Below, in pieces: positions 4,455 to 52,040 of a DNA stretch of 64,000 nt. Each line of letters begins with the position of its first letter. Within the stretch, counting starts at the first letter, position 1. The DNA is taken from assembly GCA_021234155.1 (NCBI GenBank), contig JAJEKV010000064.1, positions 2,170,001-2,234,000 of the forward strand, read 5' to 3'. Below the pieces are notes generated by a model that was given only the letters and a program-made list of their open reading frames with translations, was not told the origin of the DNA and ran no database searches. The position numbers were made by a program, and so were the translations under genes. This stretch comes from Isoetes taiwanensis. Lineage: Eukaryota > Streptophyta > Lycopodiopsida > Isoetales > Isoetaceae.

Positions 4455-4503
4455 CTAATTCAAGATCAACGACGTGGAATGCAGGGCCAGGCATGCTTCT
4501 TGG
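4455..4503. repeat. Left-hand piece of dispersed repeat R
   Basis: These 49 bases match, in reverse complement, the end of the intact copy of R near 63711-63759. The repeat resumes at 28653, after the Gypsy A array. Bases 4499-4503 (cttgg) recur at 28653-28657 as the array's target-site duplication. In the intact copy this site is uninterrupted. Confidence 0.8.
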
Positions 4504-6094
4504 TGTGACGCTCCCTGAATATATACGACCCCCGGCCATATACATACGGGGACTTTCCCCTCCCATGGCGACCATCGGCGGCCAGAGCAGTGGCCCTCCA
4601 TCTAACCGGCCGCCGCCTACGAGACGCCTCGGTGAAGGACACCGGAGGGGTCATTCGCCCACGCCGCCGATGAAGCCTACGTCGCGGAAGCATGAATACA
4701 AGGGTTAGCACACAACATAAATCACATATAAATAACCACCACGAAGGGTGGCACATCTATCCAAATACCAACGGCAAAGAATATGCATCTAAGACTAAGA
4801 AAACACCCAAAACCTGTGTTCTACCCGGCGCTCGAGACTCTAGCGGGGAGCGGCCTTCTTGGGGTCTCGGGGAGATCGGCAGACCGAATCTTGGCATGGC
4901 GCTATGGCATAGAACATCGGCTAGGGTTGTCCACTCCATCCGCCCCCGTTGCACACTTTGAGATGGGTCGAAGTCACGCTATGGCTTCGGGCTATAGCCT
5001 TCCGGAGACGTGAGACTCTAGGGACCACCCTTTGAGTCTACTCCGGTGTTCATGACACCGGTCCGTTGAGGGAGGCAGGGGGGGAGGCGCCCCTTCCGGG
5101 ATCACAAGTGGTGTCGTGGGTGATCTAGAGAATACGTGCCGCATCAGCGACCCCCCGCATCCGTGCAGAGCTTACTCACCCTAATTCTACTCAAAGTGCA
5201 TGGTGCCCCATACGGGTCACACCACTACACTGTGGGAGTGTCGGACCCATACCCCGCCCTCCACGTGACCAGGCTATCAGGTCTAGCCCATGTAGGAGTC
5301 TCAGGGAGCCTTTTATGCTCGTGCAAGACCCCACCCCTACTTCACCACTTCCGTCCCTTTGTGGGGTGCTAAGCGGACCATAGCGTGCCTATGACCCGTG
5401 GGCTCTTGTGCACAGGCCGAATCTAGTAGGGCATTTAAGGAAATACTAGGAGCATTCTATACTTGAGCTCAGAGGCCTCTACCCCCTTTTAACCCCCTGT
5501 TTCTTTCGAATTTTCTTGAACTAACTCATAGAGACATCGACCATTCCATAACAGAGCATCATTCATAATTGAACAATATTCCTAGTTACCAAAGAAGGGT
5601 TAATGCGGAACCAAAGCTAGTCGGACAAGAACACCAAAGTATTATTCTACAAATTGCAAATTAAACTACCATCGACCGGTGTTTTGGCTAGAGCCGTTGT
5701 CAAGGGTGCCTCCATAGTGTCAGTCTTGGGGTGGCGACAGCGGTTAAAGGGTGTCTTGGCGATTGGGCGAGGTTCAAGAACTTGGCCCTGAGCGCTTGCT
5801 TGCTTCCTGGTGCTGGTTGGGTCAAAATTGGGGTGAGATGGGGGTGGCGCTGTCACTTGGTGGCTTGGTTTAGAAACCCCATGCTAGCCACCTGGGTTAT
5901 GCCAAATGGCCTTCCCACCATTAGGTGTCTTAATAGCAAGTATTTAGGTAATTATCCTTTATAATTAAGTTAGCATAGCTAATTAAATCCATTGTGGCCA
6001 ACCCCTAGGTCAACATGCCCCATAGTGGTGTATCTATTGGGGTGACGTCAATATATTTATACGTGATACCGTGATAAATACTTGGAACGCCACA
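4504..6094 (-). repeat. Family A LTR 1 (3' LTR of copy A1)
   Basis: It starts tgtgacgctcc and ends aacgccaca, so both ends obey the TG...CA rule. It contains a stretch near 4530-4570 shared by all LTRs of A and, more weakly, by C and B (a run reading cccctcccatggcgacc). The right edge abuts a purine-rich tract read on the minus strand. Confidence 0.92.
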
Positions 6095-6640
6095 TTCTCC
6101 CCTCCTTAGAATTAATGTCGCCCTCAAGATTGGGTTTTGATAGAATTATATAAAACACATTATGAAGGAAGGTAATTCCTTATTTTCAAGATAATATATT
6201 AAAACTTTAAACTTTAAAAGCAGCTTTTAAGCAATCGAGGTGCATTTCACATGATTATGATAGTGAAACAGGTTCAAGGACCAAGTCCAATATCAACACC
6301 CGAGTAGCACAAGAACAAAACATGTAGACAACATAAAAAGTAGACAAATCGGGTCATCGGTAACCCTTTATACATGGGCAGGTCACGTCTTCGCTCAACC
6401 GGCCCGCATGTCAATACATCAAGATGTAGATAGTGTAAGTAGGTTGTGGTTGAAGGGACCACCCCTATATAAATAATGAAAAAATAAATAAAAACTATAC
6501 TACATGGTTTCCAAGCAGTTCGTGGTCATGTCCACATTGACAAGACACCACGCCCTAGGGAACACCTAAGGTGATCCCATCATTGGTCACTATTATCAAC
6601 TATGATGCATCTACCCACGTCCGCATACTTCTTGGCGAAA
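6095..6640 (-). other. A1 polypurine tract and 3' untranslated part
   Basis: Directly inside LTR 1 the minus strand reads AAGGAGGGGAGAA, a typical polypurine tract priming plus-strand synthesis. The remainder to the integrase C-terminus is AT-rich with no recognisable ORF. An equivalent stretch exists in copy A2 (17428-17944). Confidence 0.75.
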
Positions 6641-8537: not shown

Positions 8538-8615
8538 TAGCTTATCCTGTTCAGGATCGGGTAATGTGAGAACTGGTGCTGATGTTAGGGCATCCTTAAG
8601 ATGCTAGAAACTTTG

Positions 8616-10320: not shown

Positions 10321-10341
10321 TGTTCTCGCTTATCAGGCGTA

Positions 10342-12475: not shown

Positions 12476-13639
12476 TCACGGTGGGGAGCTTCTTGTGCCC
12501 GGCGGTGTAGAGAGAGCACGGAGGGCCCACCATGAAGCTTCACCTCGGGACCTAAATCCGGGCCATAAAAGGACTTGCCCATGTCGAAAGGCTGACAAAA
12601 AGAAACGGGTGAGGTGGTTGCCCGATACCTTCCCTTGCGGGGTCTCTGATGTGGCCACCTCCTTATCCAAATCCATGGGAACCTCCTCTTCCTTAAGTTC
12701 TTGTTGCTTCTCCCTCACATGAGCAGGATTATGATATAAATCCTCTCCCTCGTCATCTGAACCCGAGGGAACCTCAACCATATTGATGTTTGGGACGTGA
12801 GGTCCCATAGCCGTGAAGGCATCTGGTGAGGGCTGAGAGGCCGGCTCCTGCATCACGAAGTCCCGAAGCCGTAGCAGTGTCTCGGCGGGTTCGATAGTCT
12901 CCTGGCGGAACTGGAGCAGATGCTGCACCTCCGAAGGTAACTCAATAGAAGTGAAGTCGATGAAATCATCCATGCAATACTCTGCAAGCTCATAAAGCAC
13001 GTGGTCTTTACGCTTGCGCCTAAATCCAGCCACCATGTGATAAGTCCAGATAATATCATCCAAGAGAAGATATTCTTGCCCTTGGTGATAAATAACTGGA
13101 AGGGCATCCAGCCCTGACAAGCCTACGGCTTGCTCACGGCGCGGTGGCAGCTCTTCCGCTAGCTGCTTCCAACGGGCGAAGTCGCCCATGCCTATATGTT
13201 CGTCTTCTCCTTCCTCGGAAGACTCAGGCAGTTTGCCTTTCTCTACAGGCAAGGTTTCATCCTCGACGTACTGGTCCATGAGGATAGCTAGGGCGAAGGC
13301 GACCTCAAGGTATTGCCGCCCCTGATGCTGCACAACGGGCAGGTGTTTGCCCCATCGGAGATTCCCCTTCAGCACATCATATGCATGGGTGTCCCCTCCT
13401 AACATCTCCCGGACTACCTCCCGCTCCAGATATAGTTGGGGAGGATCCCCAAGAGGAATACACAGAGGGAGCATCTCCTCCCTGTAGAAATCTAGAAATC
13501 CGGCATAATCCGGATGCCTCTGCATGTTGGCAAGGAGATCTAGGCGCTGGCATAGCAAAGGCCGCAGCAGGTCGAACGGGACTTGCGGATCCCATTGCTC
13601 TCCGTCATGGTACCAGGCGGCAAGGTCAGCGGCTGCCAT
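12476..13639 (-). CDS. A1 accessory 'WY protein', unknown function
   Basis: 387 residues in one open frame, opening MAAADLAAWYHDGEQWDP. Related proteins occur at the same place in C (33580-34044, MATADFRRWYSASAH) and B (about 47600-47962, MATPMFRRWYSATAH). Shared features are the N-terminal WY pair, a block near residues 40-60 ending in a Pro-Leu-rich turn, and a segment ending in a hydrophobic AxxxAIL/AAVAIFL helix. The motif LPVxxHQGxxYL occurs twice (HQGRQYLEVAFALAIL, HQGQEYLLLDDIIWTY), suggesting an internal domain duplication. The C-terminal third is acidic (SDDEGED). No catalytic signature or known fold is recognised. Confidence 0.75.
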   Translation of the reverse strand: MAAADLAAWYHDGEQWDPQVPFDLLRPLLCQRLDLLANMQRHPDYAGFLDFYREEMLPLCIPLGDPPQLYLEREVVREMLGGDTHAYDVLKGNLRWGKHLPVVQHQGRQYLEVAFALAILMDQYVEDETLPVEKGKLPESSEEGEDEHIGMGDFARWKQLAEELPPRREQAVGLSGLDALPVIYHQGQEYLLLDDIIWTYHMVAGFRRKRKDHVLYELAEYCMDDFIDFTSIELPSEVQHLLQFRQETIEPAETLLRLRDFVMQEPASQPSPDAFTAMGPHVPNINMVEVPSGSDDEGEDLYHNPAHVREKQQELKEEEVPMDLDKEVATSETPQGKVSGNHLTRFFLSAFRHGQVLLWPGFRSRGEASWWALRALSTPPGTRSSPP

Positions 13640-13846
13640 GGCGCTGAAAGGGAGGTGAGAGGAAGAGAAACAATCCTAACAATTGAAATGAACTTTTTAA
13701 AGTCCTTTTAACTCCTTTTATTTAGGCTGACGTCAGCATTCTTTTTCATTTTTAATATAAAATAATTAAGTTTTTAATACAAATAAAAAGTTTTTATTAA
13801 ATACCAAAAAAAAAATATTTACAATGTGGAGCCCAGCAAAAATATG
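13640..13846 (-). other. A1 spacer between WY protein and H3 ORF
   Basis: An AT-rich spacer contains the 12-base palindrome gctgacgtcagc (about 13729-13740), kept in A2 near 25049. It has a TGACGTCA core like a bZIP/CREB-type site. No ORF is seen. It may simply separate two translation units; a regulatory role is inference. Confidence 0.45.
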
Positions 13847-14347
13847 CTAAGGATGCTCCCCCCGAATCCTGCGGGCGAGGGCTAAATCCTTAGGCATTAT
13901 GGTTACCCTCTTTGCGTGGATCGCGCAAAGATTGGCGTCACCAAAAAGTGCCACGAGGTAAGCCTCCGCAGCCTCCTGAAGTGCCAAAATGGCAAAGGTC
14001 TGGAAGCGGAGGTCAGTCTTAAACTCCTGTGCAATCTCCCGGACCAACCTCTGGAAGGGCAGCTTCCGTATCAGAAGCTGTGTGGACTTCTGGAACTTAC
14101 GGATCTCCCGTAAGGCCACGGTACCGGGTTTATATCGGTGGGGCTTCCTCTGGGGAGCAGGGTTTGGAGGCGGCCCTCTTGGTGCAGGCACGGTCTTAGC
14201 CCCAACAGTCGGTCGGGACGTATCCACCCGCTGCTGCCTTCGATTGGAGCTCGCATTCTTACCAAAAGCACCGACAGTCCGTAACTTCTCCTTGTATTGA
14301 CTGCCAGTCTTCCGGGCTAACCCCTTCCTCCGGTGCTTAACGGTCAC
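13847..14347 (-). CDS. A1 retroelement-borne histone H3 fold protein
   Basis: 166 residues. From residue 70 ([14 protein letters not shown]) to the end (ARRIRGEHP) it aligns without gaps to the whole H3 globular domain; by eye about 83 of 97 residues match a plant H3.3 consensus from memory. Alpha-N, alpha-1 ([24 protein letters not shown]), loop 1 (KTDLRFQ), alpha-2 ([12 protein letters not shown]), loop 2 ([13 protein letters not shown]) and alpha-3 are all there. Nucleosomal DNA and H4 contacts R63, K64, R69, R72, R83, H113, K115 and T118 are kept. The first 69 residues are a basic Pro/Arg-rich extension without ARTKQ. Loop 1 has normal H3 length, so it is not CENH3. It sits in the fossil between the WY protein and the first ORF after the 5' LTR, so it is not a host histone locus. 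Confidence 0.93.
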
Positions 14348-14664
14348 ATGCTCCGTGTGGGTTGGGCCCGACCCGCTTCAGATCCCGATCCCCCGTGGGT
14401 TCGTCCCGTCTTCTTTGAGCCTTCTTCTCCCTTTCGAGCCTCTCTCGTTCTTCCGGTACTCTCGGGCTCTCCTCGAGATCTTCCTGAATCGGGCGGGTGT
14501 TGGAAGGCCGGCCGAAAGAAGTTCAGCATGGTTACCGGTTGGTGTTGGTTCATATCAACGGATTGTTGTCGGGTAATCCGGTCGATATCGAGGATCGGGC
14601 TCCCACATGAAGCTCGAGAGCCTTCATGCCATTCGTCTGACGGGAACCTCAATTTCCACGCCAT
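14344..14664 (-). CDS. A1 basic linker ORF between tail-like ORF and H3 fold
   Basis: 106 residues. The C-terminal half is Arg/Lys/Glu/Gly-rich ([18 protein letters not shown]) and the N-terminal half mixed. It occupies the place of the long charged segment of B's tail ORF (48999-49694). I recognise no domain. It is plausibly the linker of the upstream accessory product; treated as a fossil piece. Confidence 0.45.
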
Positions 14665-14833
14665 CTATGACGCCAAAGCCGTCCCCTAAATACCGGTACT
14701 CCCTGCCACGAGTAGCTGTATCTGCTCACTCTACCTCCCGATGGTCATCCTCCCTGGCGAAGGCCCTAATGCGATCAGCTTCTGCCCTGATATCCTCCTC
14801 CTCGGTATGGCCCTCTTGCTGGGAGGATAGAAC

Positions 14834-15088
14834 TTAATCAAGATCATAACCATGTCGTTGCTCGACAAGGGTGTAAGAAAGCTGACGAAGGTTCAGCCGG
14901 ATCAGGAATGGCTCCGAGAAGTGATAGATAGGATAGGGAATCCTATCATTATTCTCAAACCGGTTCACCAACTCATCCAGAAGGATGTCGATAAAGGCCG
15001 GGTCGGTAGCCATGTGCCGGGCAATCAAGGCATAGATCTGCACTATGCTTAAGGTCTTTGGGTCTATGGTACTCTTGGTATTGGCCAT
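14834..15088 (-). CDS. A1 first ORF after the 5' LTR, start resembling an H3 tail
   Basis: The most likely start is the Met whose complement is at 15086-15088, because the sequence upstream reads as leader. It begins MANTKSTIDPK, matching MARTKQT at five of seven positions, then turns into a helical segment (LSIVQIYALIARHMATDP) of about 85 residues with acidic and Tyr-rich parts. In B the ORF at the same position starts with an exact H3 tail. Copy A2 keeps the equivalent at about 26234-26461. The likeness in A alone would be too short to trust; the position in B makes it notable. Confidence 0.5.
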   Translation of the reverse strand: MANTKSTIDPKTLSIVQIYALIARHMATDPAFIDILLDELVNRFENNDRIPYPIYHFSEPFLIRLNLRQLSYTLVEQRHGYDLD

Positions 15089-15860: not shown

Positions 15861-17427
15861 CGGACGCCTCCTCGAATATATACGACCCCCGGCCGTATAC
15901 ATACGGGGACTTCCCCCTCCCATGGCGACCATCGCGCCAGGAGCAGGGCCCTCCATCTAACCCGGGCCGTCTACGTAGAGACGCTCAGGTGAAGGACACG
16001 GAGGGGTCATTCGGCCCACGCCTTCGATGGGCGCCTACGTCGCGGAAGCATGAATACAAGGGTTGGCACACAGCATAAATCACATATAAATAACCACCAC
16101 GAAGGGTGGCACATCCATCCAAATACCAACGGCAAAGAATATGCATCTAAGACTAAGAAAACACCCAAAACCCAGGTTCTACCCCGGCTCAGACTCTAGC
16201 GGGGGAGCGACTCGAATCTTGGCATGGCGTTGGCTGGCATAGAACATCGGCTAGGGTTGTCCACTCCATCCGCCCCTCCTGTGCACACTTTGCAGATGGG
16301 TCGAGTCACGCTATGGCTTCGCTATAGCCTTCCGGAGACGTAGACTCTAGGGATCACCCTTTGAGTCTACTCCAGGTTCATGACACCTGGTCCGTTGAGG
16401 CAGGTCGGGGAGGCGTCCCCTTCCAGGATCACAGTGGTGTCGTGGGTGAGCTAGAGAATACGTGCCGCATCAGCGACCCCCGCATCCGTACCCGACTTAC
16501 TCACCCTAATTCTACTCAAAGTGCATGGTGCCCCATACGGGTCACACCACTACACCCAGGGAGTGTCAGACCCATACCTGGCCCTCCACGTGACCGGCTA
16601 TCAGGCCTAGCCCACTGTAGGAGTCTCAGGAGCCTTTTATGCTCATGCAAGACCCCACCCCCTACTTCACCACTGCGTCCCTTGTCTGGTGCTAAGCCAG
16701 ACCATAGCGTCTATGACCCGGTGGGCTCTTGTGCACAGGCCGAATCTAGTAGGGCATTTAAGGAAATACTAGGAGCATTCTATACTTGAGCTCAGAGGCC
16801 TCTACCCCCCTTTTAACCCCTGTTTACTGGAATTTACTGAACTAACTCATAGAGACATCGACCATTCCATAACAGAGCATCATTCATAATTGAACAATAT
16901 TCCTAGTTACCAAAGAAGGGTTAATCTGAACCAAAGCTAGTCAGACAAGAACACCAAAGTATTATTCTACAAATTGCAAATTAAACTACCACTGACCAGT
17001 GTTTCGGCTAGAGCCGTTGTCAAGGGGTGCCTCCATAGTCTTTGTCTTGGGGTGGCAAAGAAGCGGTTAAAGGGTGTCTTGGCGATTGGCGAGGTTCAAA
17101 GAAGCTGGTCCCCGAGCGCTTGCTTGCTTCCTGGTCTTTGGTTGGGTCAAAATTGGGGTGAGATGGGGTGTATATTTGTCACTTGGTGGCTTGGTTTAGA
17201 AACCCCCATGCTAGCCACCCAGGTTATGCCAAATGGCGCCTTCCCACCATTAGGTGTCTTAATAGCAAGTATTTAGGTAATTATCCTTTATAATTAAGTT
17301 AGCATAGCTAATTAAATCCATTGTGGCCAACCCCCTAGGTCAACATGCCCCATAGTGGTGTATCTATCTTTGGGTGACGCGTCAATATATTTATATTACA
17401 TACCGTATAAATACTTGGAACGTCACA
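15861..17427 (-). repeat. Family A LTR 2, shared by both tandem copies
   Basis: About 1567 bases, closely matching LTR 1 and LTR 3 over the whole length. It serves as 5' LTR of copy A1 and 3' LTR of copy A2. Its right edge abuts the same polypurine tract as LTR 1. No target duplication flanks it, as expected for an internal LTR of a tandem array. Confidence 0.9.
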
Positions 17428-17944
17428 TTCTCCCCTCCTTAGAATTAATCTTTGTCCTCAAAGATTGGGTTTTGATAGAATTATAGCAAAACACATTATG
17501 AAGGAAGGTAATTCCTTATTTTCGAAGATAATATATTAAAACTTTAAACTTTAAAACAGTTTAAGCACCGAGGTGCATTTCACATGATTATGATAGTGAA
17601 ACAGTTCAAGGACCGAAGTCCAATATCAACACCAGAGTAGCACAAGAACAAAACATGTAGACAACATAAAAGTAGACAAATCGGGTCATCAGTAACCCTT
17701 TATACATGGGCAGGTCACGTACTGCTCACTGGCCTGCACATGTCAATACATCAGTATGTAGATAGTGTAAGTAGGTTGTGGTTGAAGGGACCACCCCCTA
17801 TATAAATAATGAAAAAAAATAAATAAAAACTATACTACATGGTTTCCAAGCAGTTCGTGGTCATGTCCACATTGACAGTACACCACGTCCTAGGGAACAC
17901 GAAGGTGATCCCATCATTGGTCACTATTATCAACTATGATGCAT

Positions 17945-18643
17945 CTACCCCTGTTCCGCATACTTCTTGGCGAAACAAGTCTTGCACTTACCGCCGGAAG
18001 CGGGGTTGATCGCATCGTTGATGGTGCGGCCTTGAGATTCCCGCATGAAGTCCGGATAGTGCTTGTCAAGGTCTATCTTCATTACCCACGTAGCATCCTC
18101 AACTGGTAAGTGTTTCCACTTAACCAAGTATTGCAACATTTGAGTCCTTCTGGTTTGTTTGTAAGCTCGATCAAGAAGAGCTTCAAGGACTATCTCGAGT
18201 TGCTCCTCCGTCATTTCTAGGAGGGTTGGGGTGTCCAAAACCTCCTCTGGATCAGGAGTGTGTTGCTTGAGAAGACTCACGTGAAAGACTTTATGGATCT
18301 TCAAGCGGGGCGGCAAATCCAAGCGATATGCCTGCTCTCCAACACGGTCAATAATCTTGAACGGTCCAGCACATCGGGGTGCCAACTTCTTACAGTTACC
18401 AATCTTAAGCTTGGCTTGTTTCACCTTAATCTTAAGCCAAACTGATTCGCCCACCTGGAAATTGCGTGGGGTTCTGTGTTTGTCGGCCACACTCTTCTGA
18501 CGACTGCGTGCCGCTAATAAATAATCACGAACTTCTTCGACCAGCGCTTGCATCTCTAAGAGGAGTTGTTGAGAAATCTCTACTTTAGAGACGGGGTTAT
18601 GCCATGTATCTGGGGTAAGGCATTGATAACCATAATTTATCAT
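17945..18643 (-). CDS. pol: A2 integrase C-terminus with chromodomain-like end
   Basis: 232 residues in one open frame: the integrase tail ([32 protein letters not shown]), the GPFKIIDRVGEQAYRLDL and KIHKVFHVSLLK blocks, then a chromodomain-like core LQYLVKWKHLPVEDATWV with the aromatic Trp present. It ends with about 40 residues rich in Lys and Cys (KCKTCFAKKY). This is the clearest A-family view of the chromodomain. Confidence 0.9.
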   Translation of the reverse strand: MINYGYQCLTPDTWHNPVSKVEISQQLLLEMQALVEEVRDYLLAARSRQKSVADKHRTPRNFQVGESVWLKIKVKQAKLKIGNCKKLAPRCAGPFKIIDRVGEQAYRLDLPPRLKIHKVFHVSLLKQHTPDPEEVLDTPTLLEMTEEQLEIVLEALLDRAYKQTRRTQMLQYLVKWKHLPVEDATWVMKIDLDKHYPDFMRESQGRTINDAINPASGGKCKTCFAKKYAEQG

Positions 18644-18664
18644 AAAGGGGACATCACGGAAGAT

Positions 18665-19105
18665 TCACGCTTCATCTTTGTTATAAGCAAACTCGACCAG
18701 ATAAATATAGTCAGCCCATTGTGATTGCTTACTCCACACATAACTTCTTAGCATATCCTCTATAATGCGATTGGTCCGCTCTGTTTGGCCATCTGTTTGA
18801 GGATGATATGCTGTGCTCATAGCAAGCTTGGTCTGAATGGTGGTAAAGAAATCTTTCCAGAATGCGCTCACAAATTTGGGATCCCTATCCGACACAATTA
18901 CTCGTGGCATTCCGTGTAATCGGAAGATTTCCTTGGCGAAAAGCAGAGCAGTATCAAAGGCGGTATCCGTGGTACGGCATGGCAAGAAATGAGCCATTTT
19001 GGACAATTTGTCGACCACAACCATTAAGGCATCATATCCTCGGAGAGTTCTTGGAAGGCCCACAATGAAATCCATGGTTATTACTTCCCATTTGGCGTTG
19101 GGCAC
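18665..19105 (-). CDS. pol: A2 integrase catalytic core
   Basis: 146 residues almost identical to copy A1, with DDE contexts MDFIVGLPRT, VSDRDPKF and [10 protein letters not shown]. It supports the two internal regions being recent duplicates. Confidence 0.92.
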   Translation of the reverse strand: MPNAKWEVITMDFIVGLPRTLRGYDALMVVVDKLSKMAHFLPCRTTDTAFDTALLFAKEIFRLHGMPRVIVSDRDPKFVSAFWKDFFTTIQTKLAMSTAYHPQTDGQTERTNRIIEDMLRSYVWSKQSQWADYIYLVEFAYNKDEA

Positions 19106-19283
19106 ATCCAGAGGTTGTAGCTCACAGGATTCTTAAGCGATTACGCTTTTAGTCTGGCGGCATACGACACTTTGCCTAATGTATCGGCAATGTCCTTCTT
19201 CATAGAAGGCAGAAATAGCTGGAACGAATCTTAAAGTAGGTTTTCATAAACCTGCGTGTCCGGCTATAGGGCTATTGTGCGTG

Positions 19284-19900
19284 TCATGAAGAATGAGTTT
19301 CCAGGTACTCCTGAAGTCTGCGGTACACACAACTTATCCTTGTGATATAATAAGTTGCCCTCCTTCTTATAGGCACGAAAAGCGTCGCGCTCTGCATCCG
19401 TGCGAGCTTCTTTAGCCAAACTATCCCAAATGTCACAGAACTCCGGATCCGCGGGCCAAGGTGCGCTCTATCGTTTGCCAAACTCAGCGGTAAGCGTAGA
19501 AATGGCATTGCAATGGGTTCGGGTCACCAAGGGATGGTGACAATGCATCATAACCACATTGTGCTTGCCGGGCTTGTACATAATCTCGAAATCATACTCC
19601 TCCAAGAATTCCATCCATCTTCTTTGTGAGAGGTTAAGATTTGGCTGAGTGAATAAATAAGAGGAGACTTTGATGATCAGGTGTCCAATTGGAATCTTCT
19701 ACCAAGAAGGTAGTGTCTCCATATCCATGAGAGTTACAGCGGCTAACAATTCTGATCATGGGTAGGATATCGTTGCTCTGTCTCGTTCATCTTCTTTGAA
19801 TCGTAGGCAATTACCCTCCCCTCCTGCATTAGGACCCCACCGGTGGCAATTTTACTGGCATCTGTTGCCACTAGCTTATCCTGTTCAGGATCGGGTAATG
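19284..19900 (-). CDS. pol: A2 RNase H and integrase zinc-finger region, degraded
   Basis: DNA similarity to A1 (7896-8537) is continuous, and RNase H words such as those around the DTDHQSL and ADALSRH segments are recognisable, but only short open pieces remain. Fossil with several breaks. Confidence 0.8.
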
Positions 19901-19949
19901 TGAGAACTGGTGCTGATGTTAGGGCATCCTTAAGATGCTAGAAACTTTG

Positions 19950-20948
19950 CTAAACTTTCGTCTTCCAGTGGTCCATCCAATCCTTCACCTTCTCCTGCTT
20001 TGTGAGATTTGTAAGAGGAGCTGCAATCTTCGCAAAATCCTTTACAAATTTTCGATAGTAGCCTGCTAATCCCAAGAAATTCCGGACTTCGGAAACATTG
20101 CCTGGAATAGGCCATTCCCTTACGGCCTCTATCTTTGCGGGGTCTGTAGCAATTCCCTCTGCGGAAATGATATGGCCTAAATAATCAACCTTCGGAGTGG
20201 CGAACTTGCACTTAGAGAACTTAGCATAAAGTTGATGACGTCTCAGCTTTTGTAGGGCCAATTTAAGATGTTTCTCATGTTCTTCAAGGGTCTTACTGTA
20301 GATGAGAATGTCGTCGAAGAAGATAACAACAAAATCATCCAAGTATTGTTGGAAAACATCATTCATTAGGCGCATAAACGTTGCTGGGGCATTAGTTAAT
20401 CCAAAAGGCATAACTGTAAATTCATAATGCCCATACCTAGTGCGAAAAGCGGATTTATGGATGTCCTCCTCCTTGATCCTTATCTGATGGTATCCGGAGC
20501 GAAGGTCAATCTTTGAGAAATACTTAGCCCCTTGTAACTGATCCATTAGGTCATCTGCCCGAGGCAAAGCATAGCAATTCTTGATGGTATGCTTGTTAAG
20601 TTGCCGGTAATCAATACACATCCTCAGTGAGCCGTCCTTTTTCTTAACAAAGAGAATAGGGGCGCCAAAAGGCGATACACTAGGTCGGATGAAACCTAGG
20701 TTTAATAACTCTTGAAGTTGCTTCTTAAGTTCTGCCAATTCTGGAGGACTCATACGGTACGGAGCCTTGCTGGTAGGCTTGGTACCTGGTTCTAAAGCTA
20801 TTTCACATTCCACCCCTCTAAAAGGAGGAAGCTTCTGAATCTCATCCGGAAAAAGATCACCAAATTCGCGGAGAAGATTAGCAATCCCCTCTGGGAGGGC
20901 GTCGATTACCTGTTTTTGCTTAGCATCTGCCTCGATGGAAGCAAGCAT
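19950..20948 (-). CDS. pol: A2 reverse transcriptase
   Basis: 332 residues in one open frame from the protease-RT connector to the start of RNase H. It includes [46 protein letters not shown], the catalytic [11 protein letters not shown], and the thumb/connection segment [19 protein letters not shown]. The same region in A1 is in more than one piece. Confidence 0.93.
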
Positions 20949-21537
20949 AACGATTCCTTGTGTATAGCTTTATGTAACTGCCTGATGGACATAGACTGCG
21001 GGATAGGGTTGAGAGGTTCACCTTTATTGATTACGCGAGCTCCATTAGCTGCATTGAAGGTAACTTCTCTCTTCGATCTATGTTCGCTTTTTGCGGATGC
21101 CGAGAATTCCATACCAACAATGAGGTCATATTTGCCAATATCCATCAATTCAGCACCTAAAGCAACGGTGCACGGGAGTTGCATGTTGAGATTGATGCGG
21201 CGACCATGGGTATGCGACCTTACCAGCGGCTAGAGTGGCGGGTCTCGGGCCGGGACCTTAATGTTTCTAGGCGTAAGACATGGGCCATCCTAGGAGAAGC
21301 AAAATTATGTGTACTTCTGTATCCATAAGAATTACAAAAGGCTTCTTGTCTACTTGGCCTATGGTAGAAAAATGAAGGTGACTTTCGGCATTGCCGGGTT
21401 TCTAAATTTGCAAGGATATGAGGCCTTACCGTGAATGTAATGGAGCCTCCTCCTCGACGGGTTGTGTTGCTTGAGGTCATCCCAATCGAGGTCGGCCATG
21501 GCCCGGTGGGCGTCTGCGTGACATAAGGACAGTGCAT
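20906..21537 (-). CDS. pol: A2 protease region, degraded
   Basis: DNA matches A1 protease. The C-terminal segment [14 protein letters not shown] is readable in one open piece and the active-site surroundings ([15 protein letters not shown]) in another. Fossil with several breaks. Confidence 0.75.
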
Positions 21538-21551
21538 GAAGTGTCACGGCC

Positions 21552-22735
21552 TCATACACTGTAGCATGCCTTATCTCGGCGGAGCTGTTCATGGGCCTCT
21601 TTAGGAATAGCGTAAGAGGTTAGAACTTCCTTACCGGCATTGTTCTGCTTATCAGGCGTACTAAAGGTCACCTTCTTTTCCTGACGGCCATAAGAGTTCT
21701 GCTGAGAGGGGCCCGGACTTGGGGAGGCGGGGTTTGTAAGGTGTGGACGGCCGTGGGCTGCGAGTAAAGGCGCGGGGCGTGGATCTTGGTTCTTTGGCGT
21801 GTCCTCCTCGAGGCTCAATGCTTTAGCCTCTGCCTCTGCAACTGATTTTGGGTCTATGGCCTTAACCATCCGTTTGATTGATGGTGCCAATCCCTCAATA
21901 TAGCCTTCCACTGCCCTTTTCTCATTCATACCAGGTACATACAACCTCAGGCGCATAAACTCATCCGTGTAAGCCTGCACGGACATACTCTTTGCTCCAA
22001 CCTGTAGAAAGTCTGGATCTGTTGGCATTTGTGCGCACGGGGCACATAATGCGACTTGAAGGCCTTGGCAAACTTTCTGAAGTTGCATCTGCTCCTGTCC
22101 AGATGCTTGGCTCTGGCATAGCCCTTCCACCAAATGCGGGCAGCTCCTGTAAGGTTGGTGGTGGCAACCTTTCCTGTATCTTTCTCTGTCATTCCGTAAG
22201 ACTTGCCAAACTCCTTCATCTCATCCAACCAGGACTCGGCGTTTAGGCCGCCTCGAGATTTCCCATCAAACTGGGCCAATTTCCTATTCTTCCATATACT
22301 TGTTATAGCTGTATCAACCGTCTTACGGTACTCTTTGTCTCGGCGCTTTGCATGGTCACCCGCTGATACCGATGAACCAGAAGATACGGAAGTGGTTGAT
22401 CGTGAGGAAGTGGCACTATCTTTAGAGGAACTTCGGTAACGCTTAGCATGAGGCCTCCTCCTTGCAGGTACAGGACTAGCTCCAGGGGGAGATGGCTGTT
22501 GTGCAGGTGGACTCGGTGGTAGCGGAGGTAACTCCGGTCCATCCTCCTGGGTTTGTTGCGGTGGGTTGGCATGCAATACATAGGCCTGTAATTCGCCTAA
22601 CTGCCTTTTCATTAACATCAGTTCCTGTTCAGGAGTGACCCTCTTGGCGTTGGAGGGTGTCGCCAAAGCGGCGTTGCACCGCCGTCTATATCGAGCATTC
22701 ATGGAAGCATAAGCGGGGCGTACAATAACATACAA
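21552..22735 (-). CDS. gag: A2 gag
   Basis: Two large open pieces cover gag: 22735-21947 with the N-terminal coiled-coil-like block, Pro-rich linker and capsid words (SIWKNRKLAQFDGKSRGG, MKEFGKSYGM, RIWWKGYA), and 22133-21552 with AYTDEFMRLRLYVPGM, AVEGYIEGLAPSIKRMVKAI and a Pro-rich tail. The capsid pattern is that of the plant retrotrans_gag family. Better preserved here than in A1. Confidence 0.85.
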
Positions 22736-24960: not shown

Positions 24961-25171
24961 GGAATTTGAAAGGGAGGTGAGAGGAAGAGAAACAATCCTA
25001 ACAATTGAAATGAACTTTTTAAAGTCCTTTTAACTCCTTTTATTTAGGCTGACGTCAGCATTCTTTTTCATTTTTAATATAAAATAATTAAGTTTTTAAT
25101 ACAAATAAAAAGTTTTTATTAAATACCAAAAAAAAATATTTACAATGTGGAGCCGGCAAAAATATGCTAAG

Positions 25172-25672
25172 GATGCTCCCCAGAATCCTAGCGGTGAGGG
25201 CTAAATCCTTAGGCATTATGGTTTACCCTCTTTGCGTGGATGGCGCAAAGATTGGCGTCACCAAAAAGTGCCCACGAGGTAAGCCTCCGCGACCTCTGAA
25301 GTGCCAAAATGGCAAAGGTGCAGGCGGAGGTGGGTCTTAAACTCGTGCAATCTCCGGGACCAACCTACGGAAGGGCAGCTTCCGTATCGGAAGCTGTGTG
25401 GACTTCGGAACTTACGGATCTCCCGGTAAAGGCCACGGTACCGGTTTATATCGGTGGGGCTTCCTCACGGGGGAGCGGGGTTTGAGGCGACCCCCCTCTT
25501 GGTGCGGAGCGGTCTTAGCCCCCAGCGATCGGTCGGGGCGTATCCACCCGCTGCTGCCTTCGATTGGGCTCGCATTCTTACCAAAAGCACCGGCGGTCCG
25601 TAACTTCTCCTTGTATTGTTGCCGGTCTTAGGGCTAACCCCTTCCTCCCGGTGCTTAGCGGTCACATGCTTT
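25172..25672 (-). CDS. A2 counterpart of the histone H3 fold ORF, degraded
   Basis: DNA follows A1 13847-14347 closely along the H3 domain and its basic N-terminal extension, but only short open pieces remain. It shows that the H3 sequence belongs to the element and was copied with it. Fossil. Confidence 0.75.
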
Positions 25673-27125: not shown

Positions 27126-28652
27126 CGTGGCGCTCCCGAATATATAATCGACCCCGCCGTATACATACGGGACTTCCCTCCCATGGCGACCATCGCGCCC
27201 GGGCGAGGCCCTCCATCTAACGGGCCGTCCACGTAGAGGAGCTTCGGTGAAGGGACCTGGAGGGTCATTCGCCCACGCCGATGGGCCTACGTCGCGGAAG
27301 CATGAATACAAGGGTTGGCACACGGCATAAATCACATATAAATAACCACCACGAAGGGTGGCACATCCATCAAATACCAGCGGCAAAGAATATGCATCTA
27401 AGACTAAGAAAACACCCAAAACCCGGGTTCTACCCTCGCTCGGACTCTAGCGGGGGCGACTCGAATCTTGGCATGGCGTTAACGGCATAGAACATCGGCT
27501 AGGGTTGTCCACTCCATCCGCCCCTCCTCTGTGCACACACTGCGGATGGGTGAGTCGCGCTATGGCCGCTATAGCCTTGGGAGACGTAGACTCTAGGGAT
27601 CACCCTTTGAGTCTACTCGGGTTCATGACACCTGGTCCGTTGAGGCGGGTCGGGGGCGTCCCTTTCGGGATCACGGTGGTGTCGTGGGTGAGCTAGAGAA
27701 TACGTGCGCATCAGCGACCCAGCATCCGTGCCGACTTACTCACCCTAATTCTACTCAAAGTGCATGGTGCCCCCATACGGGTCACACCACTACACCAGGA
27801 GTGTCAGACCCATACCTGGCCCTCCCGTGGCCAGGCTATCGGGGGCCTAGCCCTTTGTGGGAGTCTGGGGAGCCTTTTTATGCTCATGCAAGACCCCACC
27901 CCCTACTTCACCCTGCTGCGTCCCTTGTGCGGTGCTAAGCCGGACCATAGCGTCTATGAATCTTGTGCACGGGCGAATCTAGTAGGGCATTTAAGGAAAT
28001 ACTAGGAGCATTCTATACTTGAGCTCGAGGCCTCTACCCCCCTTTTAACCCCATTTCTTTGGAATTTCTTGAGCTAACTCATAGAGACATCGACCATTCC
28101 ATAGCAGAGCATCATTCATAATTGAACAATATTCCTAGTTACCAAAGAAGGGTTAATCGAACCAAAGCTAGTCGGACAAGAACACCAAAGTATTATTCTA
28201 CAAAGTGCAAATTAAACTACCATCGACGGTGTTTCGGCTAGAGCCGTTGTCAAGGGGTGCCTCCATAGTCTTGCATCTTGGGGTGGCGACAGCGGTAAAA
28301 AGGGTGTCTTGGCGATTGGGCGATGAGGTTCATTTGGGCCCCGAGCTTGCTTGCTTCTGGTCTTTGGTTGGGTCGAAATGGGGGGTGAGATGGGGGGGTG
28401 GCTATGTCACTTGGTGGCTTGGTTTAGAAACCCCCATGCTAGCCACCCGAGGTTATGCCAAATGGCCTTCCCACCATTAGGTGTCTTAATAGCAAGTATT
28501 TAGGTAATTATCCTTTATAATTAAGTTAGCATAGCTAATTAAATCCATTGTGGCCAACCCCCTAGGTCAACATGCCCCATAGTGGTGTATCTATACTGGG
28601 TGACGTGTCAATATATTTATACGTATACCGTATAAATACTTGGAACGTCACA
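27126..28652 (-). repeat. Family A LTR 3 (outermost 5' LTR)
   Basis: About 1527 bases, ends aacgtcaca, immediately followed by cttgg (28653-28657), the target duplication that also precedes LTR 1. Similar to LTRs 1 and 2 along its whole length. Confidence 0.92.
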
Positions 28653-30146
28653 CTTGGGCTATGAGAGACAGCAACAAAGTATGATCAAATTCATGACACA
28701 AACATGGCGAATGCGTGGGTAGCTTTATTAATGATATGAAGCTATTTTTTGATCAGTGAGAGTGACGAGTGGCGAGTGACGAGTTTGAAGCCACTGAGTG
28801 ACGAGTTTCTGCAAGCTCATAACATAGCTAGGGCAAAAGTTGGTGTTGGGGCAATGACATGGACCTCGAACTTCTTCCACGAGCTGCTGCATGTCGGCCA
28901 ACATCTGCTGCGAAACTTCTACCTTTGACACGGGGTTGTGCCAAGTGTCTGGAGTTAGGCATTGATAGCCGTAATTGATCATAAATGGCGACATTTGGGA
29001 TGATTCCTGCTTGGTGGTATTGTATGCAAACTCCACCAAGTGAATAAATTCTTCCCACATGCCTTGCTTATTCCAGACATAGTTTCGTAGCATGTCCTCC
29101 AAAATCCTGTTGGTCCGCTCCGTTTGGCCATCCGTCTGAGGATGATACGCCGTGCTCATGGATAGCTTCGTCTGAATTGTCGCAAAGAGGTCTTGCCAAA
29201 AGGCACTCATAAACTTCGGATCCCTGTTGGAGATAATCTCCCTTGGCATGCCATGAAGCCTGAAGATCTCTTTGGTGAAGAGCTTTGCTGTATCCATAGC
29301 GGTGTCTGTGGTCCTGCAGAAATTTATCTGATTATGCTCTCTCTCATGCTCAGAGCCAAGATGAGAACTGTAGAAATGGAAATTTGATGGGCCATGATTA
29401 ACTAAAGCATTGATAAGGTCATATGCTAACTAGTATCAAGCCCAACGTTGCTGGTCTATATGGTGTCTGTGTTTATGGTGGTGTGCTATATGGTTTTTTT
29501 GTGTTTATAGGGGTTGTGGGACATAGTTGAAACCTATAAGCTTGAGTTTGATTCATCATGACATATACGTTAATTTCATATATCAAGTTCATTCACATTT
29601 ATTAAGCTTGGAGGAGCTTAAATATATGCATTGAATAATGCCTACATATTACATATTCACGAAGTTTATTGTAATTTGTATGTTGGATTTGACATATTTT
29701 TGTTTCGAATGCATTTCCATGTCTATACGTAGAAAAATCATGATATTTATGAACAATATATGCAACATATGTTTTGAGAACATGTTTATAGATTTTTGTT
29801 GATGGATGTTCCTTAATATTATTTTCTAGGTTTTTGTTTGTTTTCGTGTTATTTTGCAATTATTCTACAACATGCTTTATCGTAGAAAGGTAAGGTAAGG
29901 TTTGCTATTGGTTTTTCAGTCTCAAGTATATTATTGGGTCCATATGATGAACATGGACCAGTGCATAGAAAAACGTCACTGGCATATATGACACCGATGA
30001 CATTTGTAGCTTGCCCCCTTAGATTGTATTGCAGTACATAGGAAAACGTAGTATGTGTTAGTATATAATATTTTTTTACAGAAACCCAAGCTTGGACTGC
30101 ATTAGTGGGACTCCAATATCCATGCCAGAACCCCAGAACAAATTCT
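28653..30146 (-). repeat. Main part of the interrupted copy of dispersed repeat R
   Basis: Bases 28653-28863 and 29316-30146 match the inverted copy at 62750-63710 in order and without gaps larger than small indels. The copy is broken twice by other DNA: the Gypsy A array at its left side and a 452-base integrase fragment at 28864-29315. It is AT-rich with no long ORF of its own. I see no clear terminal inverted repeats, Helitron ends or poly-A, so the class is unknown. Confidence 0.85.
28864..29315 (-). mobile_element. Gypsy integrase fragment embedded in repeat R
   Basis: The minus strand encodes integrase words MDTAKLFTKEIFRLHGMPRE, SDRDPKF-like [30 protein letters not shown] and LVEEVRG, closer to element B than to A. 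In the intact R copy (near 63505-63515) the flanks of this fragment are directly joined, so it is a clean insertion of an internal retroelement piece without LTRs. Fossil fragment. Confidence 0.85.
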
Positions 30147-33579: not shown

Positions 33580-34044
33580 CTATTGGTACTGCAAAAGGAG
33601 CTGGTCTACTGCTGAGGAGGCTATGGGGTCCACATCCATGGGAGGGATAGAGGTTTCTCCCATGGGGTTTTTGGCACGGTGGGAAAGAAAGATTGCTACG
33701 GCGGCGGTGTAGGAGAAATACTTGGTCCTGTCAACTGTCAAGACCATGTAATCTGGCAACCTCTGGGCCTTGTTGGTCAGGTATTTGGCAATGTTTGGAA
33801 CATCACCCAAGGCTGCTTGAAGGGATTGCCAGGGAACAAAATAGCCTGTACAAGGGGGGAGCTGCACTAGGGATGGTCCTACCCTAGCTTGGAAGTCGGA
33901 CAAGACTTGTCTATATGCTGGGGTTGCGTGCAGAGTGGCTTGGACGTCTATCTCTTTTTGGAAAACTTGAAAATTGGCATTGACATCTGTCTCAGCTGCA
34001 TGGGCACTAGCGCTGTACCATCGCCTGAAATCAGCAGTTGCCAT
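33580..34044 (-). CDS. C WY protein, N-terminal part
   Basis: 154 residues opening MATADFRRWYSASAHAAETD. It matches B's MATPMFRRWYSATAHVAEAD closely, and A's WY protein more weakly: LPPCTGYFVPWQSLQAALGD, LPDYMVLTVDRTKYFSYTAA and AVAIFL. A single open frame covers it up to an acidic stretch at the solo LTR boundary. Unknown function; the same position (just downstream of H3) in A, B and C suggests it works with the H3-like product. Confidence 0.72.
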   Translation of the reverse strand: MATADFRRWYSASAHAAETDVNANFQVFQKEIDVQATLHATPAYRQVLSDFQARVGPSLVQLPPCTGYFVPWQSLQAALGDVPNIAKYLTNKAQRLPDYMVLTVDRTKYFSYTAAVAIFLSHRAKNPMGETSIPPMDVDPIASSAVDQLLLQYQ

Positions 34045-34734: not shown

Positions 34735-35190
34735 CTAATAGGGCTCTCCCTTAATTACACTGGCCAAGTGCATATCCTTTCTCATTAAGGTTACTCGCTT
34801 GGCATGCACGGTGCAGGCTGTGGAATCTTCAAAGTGCTGCACTAGCTTCTGCTCGGTTGCTTCCTGTAATGCCAGCAACATTTCATCCGTCACCCTCATG
34901 TCGGTGTTGTATTCCTGTATTACTTCTCTGACTAATCGGGCGAACGGTGTACAGGGGATTAGGAAGCCGAAGCTGCGCTGAAAGTGCCTAATCTCCCGTA
35001 GTGCTCGTCTCTCGCTCTTCTTTCTGCTGGCTCTCTTTTTTGCTGGTTTCTTGGGAGGCTTGGGCTTCTCTGGCGGCGGCCTTAAGGTCTGCTTCTTCGA
35101 TGGACGTCCACCTTCGACAATTCTGACCCCGTTCTTGGTCCTCCAGAATGGCACCACTGTGCATTCTTTCACATGCCGTGACATATTCAA
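34735..35190 (-). CDS. C retroelement-borne histone H3 fold protein, diverged
   Basis: 151 residues in one open frame. Residues about 63-151 (ALREIRHFQ to IKGEPY) align to the H3 globular domain without gaps; by eye about 48 of 89 match plant H3. R69, R72, R83, K115 and T118 are kept. REIRHFQ, LIPCTPF and VTLMRKD resemble plant CENH3 rather than H3, but loop 1 has the ordinary H3 length (NTDMR) and lacks the CENH3 insertion. The first 60 residues are a Lys/Pro-rich basic tail (RPPPEKPKPPKKPAKKRASR) with no ARTKQ. It lies upstream of the WY protein, as in A. It could derive from H3 or CENH3; a profile and tree search is needed to decide. Confidence 0.9.
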   Translation of the reverse strand: MNMSRHVKECTVVPFWRTKNGVRIVEGGRPSKKQTLRPPPEKPKPPKKPAKKRASRKKSERRALREIRHFQRSFGFLIPCTPFARLVREVIQEYNTDMRVTDEMLLALQEATEQKLVQHFEDSTACTVHAKRVTLMRKDMHLASVIKGEPY

Positions 35191-37601: not shown

Positions 37602-37606
37602 GTTTG

Positions 37607-39228
37607 TGTGACGTCCCCTACTCTTTATACGATGCCCGCATCGTATTCGAAGGAGGAGCATTCCCCCTGGCAGCTACACTAACAGGGGCCATCCACCCGA
37701 CTCCACTCCCATCGGGAAGAGCCAGCAAGGGAAGAGTGGATGTGTCATTCACCCGTCTCCCTTCGGGTCGACCTATCTGCGGAAGCGTGAATAAACAAAC
37801 GTGAGCACAACTAACAATATACAAATACAATCACCTCGAAGGGTAAACACAATACAACAATCATAGAGATAGCAACATCACAGAGATAACAATACCATCA
37901 TAACATCAAGAATAAAGGGGAGATCCTACCCAGGGGCTCAGACTCAAGGGGGATGACTGACGGCTAGGGTCTCCAGAAGTCATTGCAGACAGAATTCATG
38001 GCAATGGATTTGGCTGGCATAGAACATGGGTTAGGGTAGTCCACTCCATCCGCCCCTCCCGTGCACACTTTGCAGAATAGGTTGAAAAGCTTTGGGACCT
38101 AACCGTAGCCTGCCGGGTAAATAGTGGGCTACTACTAGGTTGCATCTCCCCAGTCCCGATGAGGCATGAGGGAAGTCACCTCCCCTCCAGAAGCACCCAT
38201 GCCCTTCACAGGCGGCTAGAGAGCCACTGCTCTTATTTGACTTCGACTCACTGGAAGGTGATGCATCACCCCACGAGTGTCGAGCTCATGCCTTGCCCAC
38301 ACGCAGTGACAAGCCATTAAGCCTAGCCCGCAGAGACCTCCGGTAGGCCTTACACACCAGAGGGGTCAGTCTGTGTAGGGACATGTTCTTCCTTATCAGT
38401 CAGTCGGATCCCTCCACCCACAACCAGGCGGGCTCCTGTGCACAGGCCGCATGTAATTGGGAACTAAGGTGCTATTCTAGGAGCATCTGCTACTAAGCCT
38501 TTAGGTCTCTACCCCTCTTCCCAATACATGGAGGTCACAGAGTGAAATACATGCAATATCATAGAACTGAAATAGAGAATCACATCAATCTATCTGCCTA
38601 ACATCTAATGTTAGGTTCCTTTGTTAGAGTTCCAGATCTAAGGATCTACAAGGCTTCTAGAGATGACCTAACATACTAAACCGGCCTATTGCCATGCCCA
38701 AAGACGGTTTTGCACAACAGAACAACTAGATACCTGGTCCCTGGCCTGCTCCTGATCCTCGGAAGGCATCCACGCTCCTGATCTTACTGAAGGAGGCTGC
38801 TACTCGACAATCTGTTGTGCAAATCCGGCTTTTCGGAGCCTAGCAATGCGAATTGGAGTCCTACCTTGGCCAAAATGGCCCAAGAGAACCCTAAATGCGA
38901 AAATGGGAAGGAAGGTCTAGAAAACCCTAATTGGCAAAACGAAAGGAGGGCTAGGGTCTAGGGTTTTAGCCCTTATATAGACCCTATCTAGGTTAGGGCA
39001 TCCACATAGTCAAATGGCTTTATGCCATTTGGAAATGGATGAACAAGGAACCTTTTATTGTGTATGTTTAATTACATACACAACATCCAAGGTTGCCCCC
39101 TAGGTGCAACCTTTAGCTCCTAGGTGCAACATTATCCTGCTCTCAAGTACATGTCATCTATGACATGTACGTGTGACGTGGCAGTATAATATACGTATTG
39201 GGAGCGTATATTATGCTGGAACGTCACA
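37607..39228 (-). repeat. Element B 3' LTR (left)
   Basis: Begins tgtgacgtcccctac, ends gaacgtcaca, preceded by gtttg. Nearly identical to the right LTR, and the same length. An early stretch (cgatgcccgcatcgtattcg) holds a short palindrome shared in position with the A LTR start. Confidence 0.93.
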
Positions 39229-46508: not shown

Positions 46509-47599
46509 CAGGGTATTTTTTAAGCGCCCTATATTTTTATAGGGCCAGAAACAACTGGCTACTGGCCATGTAGAATAAATAACTTGGCGTAGTTTGGCCT
46601 GGCGATATTTTGCACCTTCTTGCTAAGATGGCGAATCGAATCGGGCGCAACTATGATATTTTTATTTTGCTACATTAACAAATTGGCTACGAGCAAATTT
46701 GTGTTGGTTAAGATAGGAACATGCTTTAGTAGTGAAAACTCGACGTTGGCCACAACCACCTAGGCGTCTTCCCCAAATAATACGTTCAAATTGCTTTGGA
46801 TCATAGGCCTTATCATCTGCAAATTCATAGCCTTCATCAAGACCCTCAATTTGGCCTATGAAAGTGGACATAGACGATGATATAGTGATGCGCCACTTTG
46901 TCCTTAATGTCGCAGATCCCAAGAACTCATTTATTCTCTTTTGTGAAGCCCCTTCCATGCTGCATAAATTTGATGATTGGCATCAACAACTATTTTTGCA
47001 CATCTGAATAATTTTGCATAACTGAATAGGGTAAAAACTAACCTGAATTGATGAAGCTAAAGCTTAGATTGTACATGGGAATGGATCTCCATCTCAACCA
47101 AATCGTGAATACAAATCGGGAGTGCTCTGCAAATGACAATAAAATATAATATTAAAATTATCATCCCATTCATATTCAGAGACTAACATCCCATTTATAT
47201 TTATATTCACATGAATAATGAAACAGATGCATACGAGAAGAACAGGAAAAATACAGGCTCGACAGGGTAGAATAAACTAAACCTGTATGATGGCATGTGG
47301 TCGAGATATAATATGGCCACCCCCTTACCCATTAAAATTTACCTTAGGTTCTAATTGGCCACCTCGATAAGTTTTTTCCCACGTACAAAAAATCGAATTG
47401 GCCACACCCTGTGCCTAGCCGAATTTAGTAAATATCGAATTGGCTACTTAATGAGTAAAATGTATAAATTCGTGTTTTGAACTGGCCACTACCCTTCGGT
47501 CAGGACATGAACGTATCCTACTCTGGCGTAGCCAACAATTTCTGAAAAAATATGAATGTGTGGCCAACTGGCCCGCCGGGGCCACTAAAAAATACCCTG
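46509..47599. mobile_element. hAT-like DNA transposon, non-autonomous, inside element B
   Basis: 1091 bases with terminal inverted repeats CAGGGTATTTTTTA (14 bases, both ends) and a perfect 8-base target duplication ataggaat (46501-46508, 47600-47607). CAGGG ends plus 8-base duplication are the hAT signature. Near the left end a palindrome reads cgccctatatttttataggg. The minus strand holds a 98-residue ORF (46662-46958) starting MEGASQKRINEFLGSATLRT, rich in charged residues, that I cannot place; it is not a recognisable transposase core. It splits the WY protein of B. Confidence 0.9.
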
Positions 47600-47962
47600 A
47601 TAGGAATATGGCTACGGCTGCATTGTAAGAGAAGTATCTCCTCTTATTGGTGGAGACTGACATATAATCGGGCAGGCGGGTTGCTTTGTTTTCTAGGTAT
47701 TTTTCTACGTTTGGTATGTCCCGGAGGGCTATCTTGAGGGCTGTGTTGGGTGCAAAGTATCCTATGCAAGGTGGGAGTTCTACTAAGAATGGTCCTATCT
47801 TAGCATGGAACTCGGACATAATGTCCTGGTAGAAGGGTGTGGCATTGATGGTGGCCTCCACGTCGATCTGCTTCTGAAAAACATTGAAGACAGAATTGAT
47901 GTCGGCCTCGGCCACGTGAGCTGTGGCGCTGTACCATCGCCTGAACATAGGAGTTGCCATGG
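47600..47962 (-). CDS. B WY protein, N-terminal part
   Basis: Starts MATPMFRRWYSATAHVAEAD (Met near 47960), and continues with VFNVFQKQIDVEATINATPF, LVELPPCIGYFAPNTALKIA and RRYFSYNAAVAIFLS. It matches C strongly and A weakly. Upstream in-frame residues to 48062 read as leader. It ends at the hAT insertion. Unknown function. Confidence 0.75.
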
Positions 47963-52035: not shown

Positions 52036-52040
52036 GTTTG

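Follow-up and report, generated by a model that had tools for sequence, protein, structure and literature searches.

In a 64,000-nucleotide stretch of the Isoetes taiwanensis genome (hereafter the window) we find Gypsy-type LTR retrotransposons that carry a histone H3 fold ahead of gag. We read them as a large Ty3/Gypsy chromodomain lineage with an accessory, host-derived H3 gene whose product would pair with host H4 and act in chromatin, and we give this reading, whose functional part is deduced by comparison, a probability of roughly 0.55. The data suggest that element lines use a histone of their own.

Results

Four Gypsy elements carry an H3 fold at the same place

Within the window, tblastn locates H3 folds in four elements, here called A, B, C and D, and in each of them the fold lies directly 5' of a second open reading frame (ORF2) and of gag-pol (Table 1). 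Five Gypsy bodies are seen in the window, four with the fold at the same place; the fifth (62750-63759) is a C-like fragment of about 1 kb on the opposite strand that holds neither H3 nor ORF2 and does not reach the H3 region. The initial annotation of this DNA, which dealt with element A, allowed that every other copy of the family might lack H3; the four bodies show otherwise, and its view that a chromodomain Gypsy element has an H3 fold located 5' of gag is supported. The ORF that it described does lie inside an LTR-flanked element, the LTRs at 4507-6095 and 15863-17428 being 89% identical.

Elements A and B form a tandem array of three LTRs and two internal regions within a single bounding TSD, CCAAG (4499-28657). 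The array sits inside element C: its flanks, when joined, match an uninterrupted stretch at ~63.5-63.76 kb across the junction (257 columns, 87.5%). Element C itself (~28.7-35.2 kb) is partial: besides H3 and ORF2 it has integrase pieces and a gag-side part; no RT match was found in it, and self-comparison of the window revealed no LTR of its own. Element D is complete (37607-52035), with LTRs, TSD and a primer binding site that we take to be of the tRNA-Met type; an exact match to this site is found in neither A nor B. ARAGORN, run with the bacterial code, found no tRNA.

Several further features accompany these bodies. The C region contains a further LTR insertion at 32264-33525, homologous to the A and B LTRs and inverted relative to them. 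An ORF at 3143-3781 resembles, by eye, a Copia gag (MASRFGANLLNAIEVFKGESGFQIWKQSI...), and a pair of repeats outside the described elements (61877-62258 and 58928-59313) is 90.5% identical over 391 columns. Five stable hairpins flank the H3 gene, three of them similar copies in D (50124-50215, 49905-50000 and 48248-48330, with shuffle z of -4.8, -5.8 and -7.1) and two in C (34545-34630 and 34350-34435, with z of -5.8 and -2.9). None of the five has an Rfam match at gathering score, and an inverted-repeat scan of the window (at least 17 nt) gave 22 pairs, only one of which is among these hairpins.

Table 1. Coordinates, strand and remarks for the features of elements A to D, by position in the window.
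Feature	Position	Strand	Remarks
TSD CCAAG outside the A-B array, 3' side	4499..4503	-	
3' LTR of element A, outer end of the A-B array	4507..6095	-	LTR end TCACA runs to 4504
Element A ORF2, between H3 and gag	12476..13639	-	387 aa; homologue P0241
Element A H3 ORF as annotated	13847..14347	-	166 aa, GTG start; 67-residue basic extension and H3 core
Element A H3 core	13850..14146	-	85/99 residues identical to plant H3.3
Element A, presumed upstream part of the same gene	14348..15088	-	putative assignment; ATG at 15088 (MANTKST)
LTR common to A (5' LTR) and B (3' LTR)	15863..17428	-	self-comparison
Element B gag-pol pieces: gag, RT, integrase core, SH3-like, chromodomain	17945..22735	-	
Element B H3 region, homologous to A	25170..25665	-	frame broken
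5' LTR of element B	27127..28652	-	self-comparison
TSD CCAAG outside the A-B array, 5' side	28653..28657	-	
Element C integrase pieces beside the A-B insertion site	28653..29318	-	
Element C ORF2, N-terminal part	33580..34044	-	
Element C diverged H3 ORF	34735..35190	-	151 aa, open; PF00125 E 3.9e-27, 95.4 bits (cut-off 26.4)
Element D TSD CAAAC, 3' side	37602..37606	-	
Element D 3' LTR	37607..39228	-	94.9% identical to 5' LTR
Element D ORF2, N-terminal part	47448..47960	-	homologous stretch 47598-47960
Element D H3 fold, two pieces in different frames	48480..48726	-	tblastn; frame broken
Element D Pro/Lys linker ahead of H3 fold	48746..48829	-	22/28 identical to element C 35035-35118
Element D 231-aa ORF, start MARTKQTARK	48999..49694	-	presumed N-terminal part of the H3 gene
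Element D primer binding site TGGTATCAGAGC	50401..50412	-	sole exact match in the window
Element D 5' LTR	50414..52035	-	94.9% identical to 3' LTR
Element D TSD CAAAC, 5' side	52036..52040	-	

All frames are taken as assembled, none having been mended. When the tandem copies are compared (15863-28652 against 4507-17427), B differs from A by 572 substitutions (328 transitions and 244 transversions) and 349 gap columns over 9558 aligned bases. Substitutions per 100 columns amount to 3.9 at 40-50% GC, 6.8 at 50-60% and 11.2 at 60-70%, and at low GC to 4.7 (30-40%) and 6.0 (20-30%); gaps are commonest, at 14.2 per 100 columns, in the four comparison windows with 20-30% GC. Between H3 and ORF2, the two copies are almost the same over an AT-rich stretch of more than 200 bases. 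Decay may lie behind the differences between A and B and the frame breaks, and uncorrected read errors in the assembly are a possible source of part of them.

The H3 of element A is close to plant H3.3

Taken as it stands, the H3 ORF of element A matches the Pfam Histone model PF00125 over residues 51-162 (E 4e-42, 143.7 bits, cut-off 26.4). This highly significant match confirms the histone fold and rules out a chance ORF. Among PDB sequences it matches best 7ux9_E, Histone H3.3 (E 1.7e-53), and against H3.3 residues 37 to 135, the aN-a1-a2-a3 core, the alignment is ungapped with 85 of 99 residues identical; the initial annotation had counted about 83 of 97 by eye over an ungapped globular domain. 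The 14 changes relative to H3.3 are R42K, Y54F, E59Q, D77E, S86T, H87F, V89I, G102A, E105G, T107A, I124L, Q125A, R134H and A135P. Their mean BLOSUM score is milder than chance (P 0.0072), and substitutions scoring 1 or more number 7 of the 14 versus 4.3 expected, which is not significant (P 0.096).

We checked 31 positions that we take to be contact or modification sites of H3. Element A keeps 29 of them (the exceptions are R42K and E105G), in line, for this element, with the claim that H4- and DNA-contact residues are kept. At the four positions that presumably tell plant H3.1 from H3.3 (31, 41, 87 and 90), A has the H3.3 residue at two (Y41 and L90) and the residue of neither type at 31 and 87, position 87 being F; its a2 chaperone site reads FAIL.

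The core is preceded, ahead of the residues KPHRY, by a basic extension of 67 residues with a pI of 12.0. The stop-to-stop frame around the ORF (13847-14377, 176 codons) has no ATG ahead of the fold; the ORF as annotated is therefore not a complete gene, and it is probably the C-terminal part of a longer frame or protein.

The H3 of elements C and D has diverged

The open H3 frame of element C aligns with H3.3 in an ungapped register at 49 of 99 residues. Here the earlier description of the fold as nearly canonical finds its limit: it suits element A and does not suit C, in which 19 of the same 31 presumed sites are kept. The losses include Y41, T45, R63, K64 and F84, which argues against ordinary nucleosome wrapping by a C-type protein, as far as its residues indicate; among those kept are C110, H113, R116, D123, L126 and I130.

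A structure model of the C protein has four predicted helices (57-74, 80-94, 102-132 and 137-147), with pLDDT block means of 87-94 over residues 81-120 and a loose overall pTM of 0.41. In a Foldseek search of the model against PDB, 50 of 50 among the matches listed are nucleosome or histone entries, and 231 matches have E <=0.001. Since the TM-score is ~0.42 by model length and the rmsd is at least 6.1 among the values shown, the packing of the helices in this model is poorly determined.

Tail, charged linker and fold appear to form one gene

The upstream ORF of element D opens with MARTKQTARK, that is, with the exact H3 residues 1-9 after the Met, and continues with V where H3 has S10. From this start the order in D is the MARTKQTARK ORF, a highly charged spacer, frame breaks, the linker and the H3 fold. 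Element A has a charged stretch near 14355-14465 that resembles the spacer of D, and the context of its ATG at 15088 is strong by the rule as we understand it, at a distance from the fold like that in D. From ATG to the stop of the fold there are 414 codons in A (five internal stops) and 409 in D (four), both in register. A search for the pattern M[AP][RN]TK or ARTKQ, chosen after D had been seen, in the six frames of the window matches only at the D and A starts. We infer that tail, charged linker and C-terminal fold belong to one gene, and would make one protein, of about 410 codons, of which the window copies include no complete, intact example. The initial view that the H3 tail is simply replaced by a 69-residue basic extension is accordingly to be revised: the extension is of 67 residues, the element D upstream ORF opens with the exact H3 tail, and the element A ORF has no AUG.

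The tail of D and the residues of C bear on the main rival to our reading, above all for the C and D type, in which the product is a decoy off chromatin. The fold would bind host H4, H3 chaperones or, through its ARTKQTARK tail, silencing readers and writers, and silencing would be escaped without deposition in nucleosomes. Such a decoy fits the DNA-contact residues lost from C together with the set that it kept, as well as a tail in D that is exact H3 through K9 and then has V instead of S10, but it fits poorly with element A, which keeps nearly all of the checked positions; we regard it as rather unlikely.

Selection has kept the fold inside the elements

Of 252 aligned bases, 85 differ between the H3 folds of C and D. 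With saturation at synonymous sites (pS 0.775) and a pN of 0.216, the aligned codons show that, between C and D, the element lineage has had its H3 fold preserved by purifying selection. We also placed the same base changes at random in 2000 draws and counted identical residues. The observed 55 of 84 identical residues compare with a random-placement mean of 35.1, and none of the 2000 draws is as high; the same holds (0 of 2000 each) for the Pro/Lys linker, with 22 of 28 residues kept, and for ORF2, with 75 of 121. Canonical H3 has no such linker; C and D therefore owe it to common descent within elements, which means that the constraint acted on an element-borne gene.

The random-placement test gives the same outcome for the fold in A versus C (49 of 87) and in A versus D (42 of 83), again with 0 of 2000 draws as high in each; if A stems from a separate capture, some of this constraint could date from the host. 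The linker similarity between A and C is not significant, 298 of 5000 shuffles being as good. The shuffle runs for A-D (2962 of 5000) and C-D (1256 of 5000) were badly anchored and carry no information; the homology of C and D is plain from the separate comparison.

A lone processed H3 pseudogene is ruled out by the presence of H3 in four bodies together with the selection on it. A related reading makes the captured H3 fragment a passenger without function in an ordinary element. Plant LTR elements do capture gene pieces of their hosts, and the frames broken in B and D and the stops in the upstream frame of A are as expected of a passenger, but selection acted on both fold and linker between C and D, and H3 stands at the same place in four bodies; this reading strikes us as very improbable.

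ORF2, gag-pol and chromodomain

ORF2 is homologous across A, C and D and is present as pieces in B. The A, C and D stretches and P0241 have no Pfam match, and A and P0241 have no NCBIfam match; assignment to a known family was given up on these grounds, a structure model with a mean pLDDT of 41 being too weak to use. The sole relative among 7056 scored candidates is P0241, a protein of 471 aa from an ENA contig that is 41% identical (E 2.3e-69).

Pfam domains follow in Gypsy order, with PF00078, PF00665, PF24626 and PF00385 in B and PF17917 in D, and between them B and D have RT, RNase H, integrase and chromodomain. In the gag of D we see a CX2CX4HX4C zinc knuckle by eye, its Pfam matches lying below the curated cut-offs. 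This gag matters for the proposal that the H3 fold is a nucleic-acid packing domain in the particle or the reverse-transcription complex: the pI of the basic extension and the location of the H3 gene beside gag speak for it, whereas the gag of D already has its zinc knuckle, DNA contacts are lost in C and no fusion to gag is seen. Packing of this kind is improbable in our estimation.

By the definition given in the portion of PMC3350952 consulted, the chromodomain of element B is, by eye, without Y24 and Y48, two of the three cage aromatics; the same portion describes group II chromodomains as having lost Y24 and usually Y48. An integrase chromodomain lacking both residues means that a self-reading circuit is not supported.

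One capture or two

The place of the element H3s among plant H3 and CENH3 was examined in two trees, the first built on 39 of 228 trimmed rows (a chosen subset, one further chosen row being lost in trimming) and the second on 25 of these 39 rows with two further CENH3s. Element A joins plant H3.3 (support 94/85 and 94/77), a grouping that answers the comparison with plant H3 and CENH3 called for at the outset and rules out a CENH3 identity for A. Element C stands beside plant CENH3 on a very long branch, with support of 98/75 when one CENH3 is included and 86/80 when there are three (the two further ones among them).

Origin is an axis separate from function, and here the trees raise the possibility that the H3 of A stems from a host H3.3 acquired independently of the H3 in C and D, whose fold would come from CENH3 or from an older H3 capture. 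Besides the two tree positions, the rates of divergence favor two captures: the H3 fold diverges faster than pol, with 49 of 88 residues identical between A and C versus 66-78% in RT and 85-88% in the integrase core between B and D. Against this, the branch of C is very long and a single clade of A and C is not rejected (AU p 0.522). In loop-1, moreover, A and C have the H3 length and the Quercus CENH3 is one residue longer, so that C is without the CENH3 insertion, and the 60 PDB sequence matches shown for C are all H3 entries, none of them CENP-A. Finally, in both types H3 stands at the same position before the same ORF2, which speaks for a single capture, of an entire H3 gene. We hold two captures to be a tentative proposal, with the odds somewhat against it.

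Discussion

We return to the reading of an accessory H3 gene whose product pairs with host H4. The H3 gene, derived in this view from a host H3, would come first behind the 5' LTR, with ORF2 and gag-pol following it. Its product of about 410 residues (tail, charged linker and fold) would pair with host H4. An A-type protein, with its contacts kept, may enter host nucleosomes via the H3.3 pathway, and its long foreign tail would then alter the reading or silencing of chromatin at element copies, an action that we model on the extended tail of bracovirus CpBV-H4. The C and D type, with several DNA contacts lost and the H3-H3' surface kept, may have moved to binding H4 or chaperones. In a more specific version, the lineage would encode a replacement H3 of its own (~410 residues, with exact K4/K9 tail, charged spacer and fold), which is deposited with host H4 at element chromatin, steers silencing or integration, and has been selected for as long as pol has diverged; to this version we can lend only doubtful credence.

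Hosts silence transposons on the scaffold that histones provide. If our reading is true, a transposon with its own, kept H3 reverses that relation and permits a direct test of elements altering chromatin from within the nucleosome, and it supplies an H3 variant from nature whose tail is long and foreign. Virus-borne histones, which the consulted part of PMC9145170 describes for DNA viruses, would then have a counterpart in retroelements.

Database searches place the sequences as follows. A protein search with the H3 of A returned 8000 of 8000 scored candidates, and 11 examined among the 120 matches listed hold two H3 copies each. The search with the H3 of C returned 181 of 219 candidates, and among the best 120 of 181 no name points to an element. 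Searches for relatives in IMG/VR, GTDB contigs and phage records gave no confirmed match, and a viral fold library gave no match at E <=0.001, its best being H2A-like proteins. In the open-licence PMC literature, covered by titles and abstract starts, we found no retrotransposon carrying H3.

Extra ORFs in plant Gypsy elements and viral histones are both already known, and a retrotransposon-borne H3 is a variant on these. Rotifer LTR elements, too, have reportedly captured extra ORFs. The cellular counterpart is plant H3.3, which A resembles in its core (Table 1) and in Y41 and L90 at what we take to be diagnostic positions, and from which it differs in the F at 87, in a tail region of its ORF that is unlike H3 and in its setting in a mobile element. 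Together with the chromodomain type and the presumed tRNA-Met primer binding site, these H3.3 residues point to a plant host.

Among plant elements, the group II chromoviruses (Tekay, Reina, Galadriel) have the same pol order and a chromodomain, and the chromo box YLVKWKH found here is near the Galadriel motif quoted in PMC3350952; they differ in that the consulted portion of this source mentions no H3 gene for them, the phrase 'histone H3 gene' occurring 0 times. The ORF0 of Retrosat2, RIRE3 and RIRE8 and the extra ORFs of Ogre are likewise additional ORFs in large plant Gypsy elements, and ORF0 lies upstream of gag-pol and evolves faster than gag-pol (consulted parts of PMC3485330 and PMC6431247). 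The difference is that those parts of the two papers name no histone fold for ORF0.

Viruses offer closer parallels in the protein. Single viral H3s (Manila clam xenomavirus, Dishui Lake phycodnavirus, Sylvanvirus and others) have folds 73-87% identical to eukaryotic H3, extended tails in three of six, and an a2 chaperone site that reads TAIL or SAIL in three, according to the consulted part of PMC9145170. As here, H3 occurs alone, and the FAIL of element A is near their TAIL and SAIL. They belong to DNA viruses, however, and are taken there as sporadic, relatively recent captures (PMC9145170, same part), whereas we find an LTR retroelement with selection acting between diverged subfamilies; the main text of this 2022 review of viral histones, as consulted, does not contain the words 'retrotransposon' or 'retrovir-'. 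CpBV-H4 and CvBV-H4 show the other half of the likeness: they are close to the host histone, sit on a mobile or viral genome and have gained an N-terminal tail (PMC5423620, consulted part). They are H4 and not H3, their tail adds 38 residues, and they come from a wasp polydnavirus; for CpBV-H4, incorporation into host nucleosomes and an action exerted by the extended tail are shown experimentally in the same part of PMC5423620, a function that for the elements we only deduce. For element-borne histones that would act through extended tails, CpBV-H4 and the single viral H3s are, by analogy, the nearest and best precedents.
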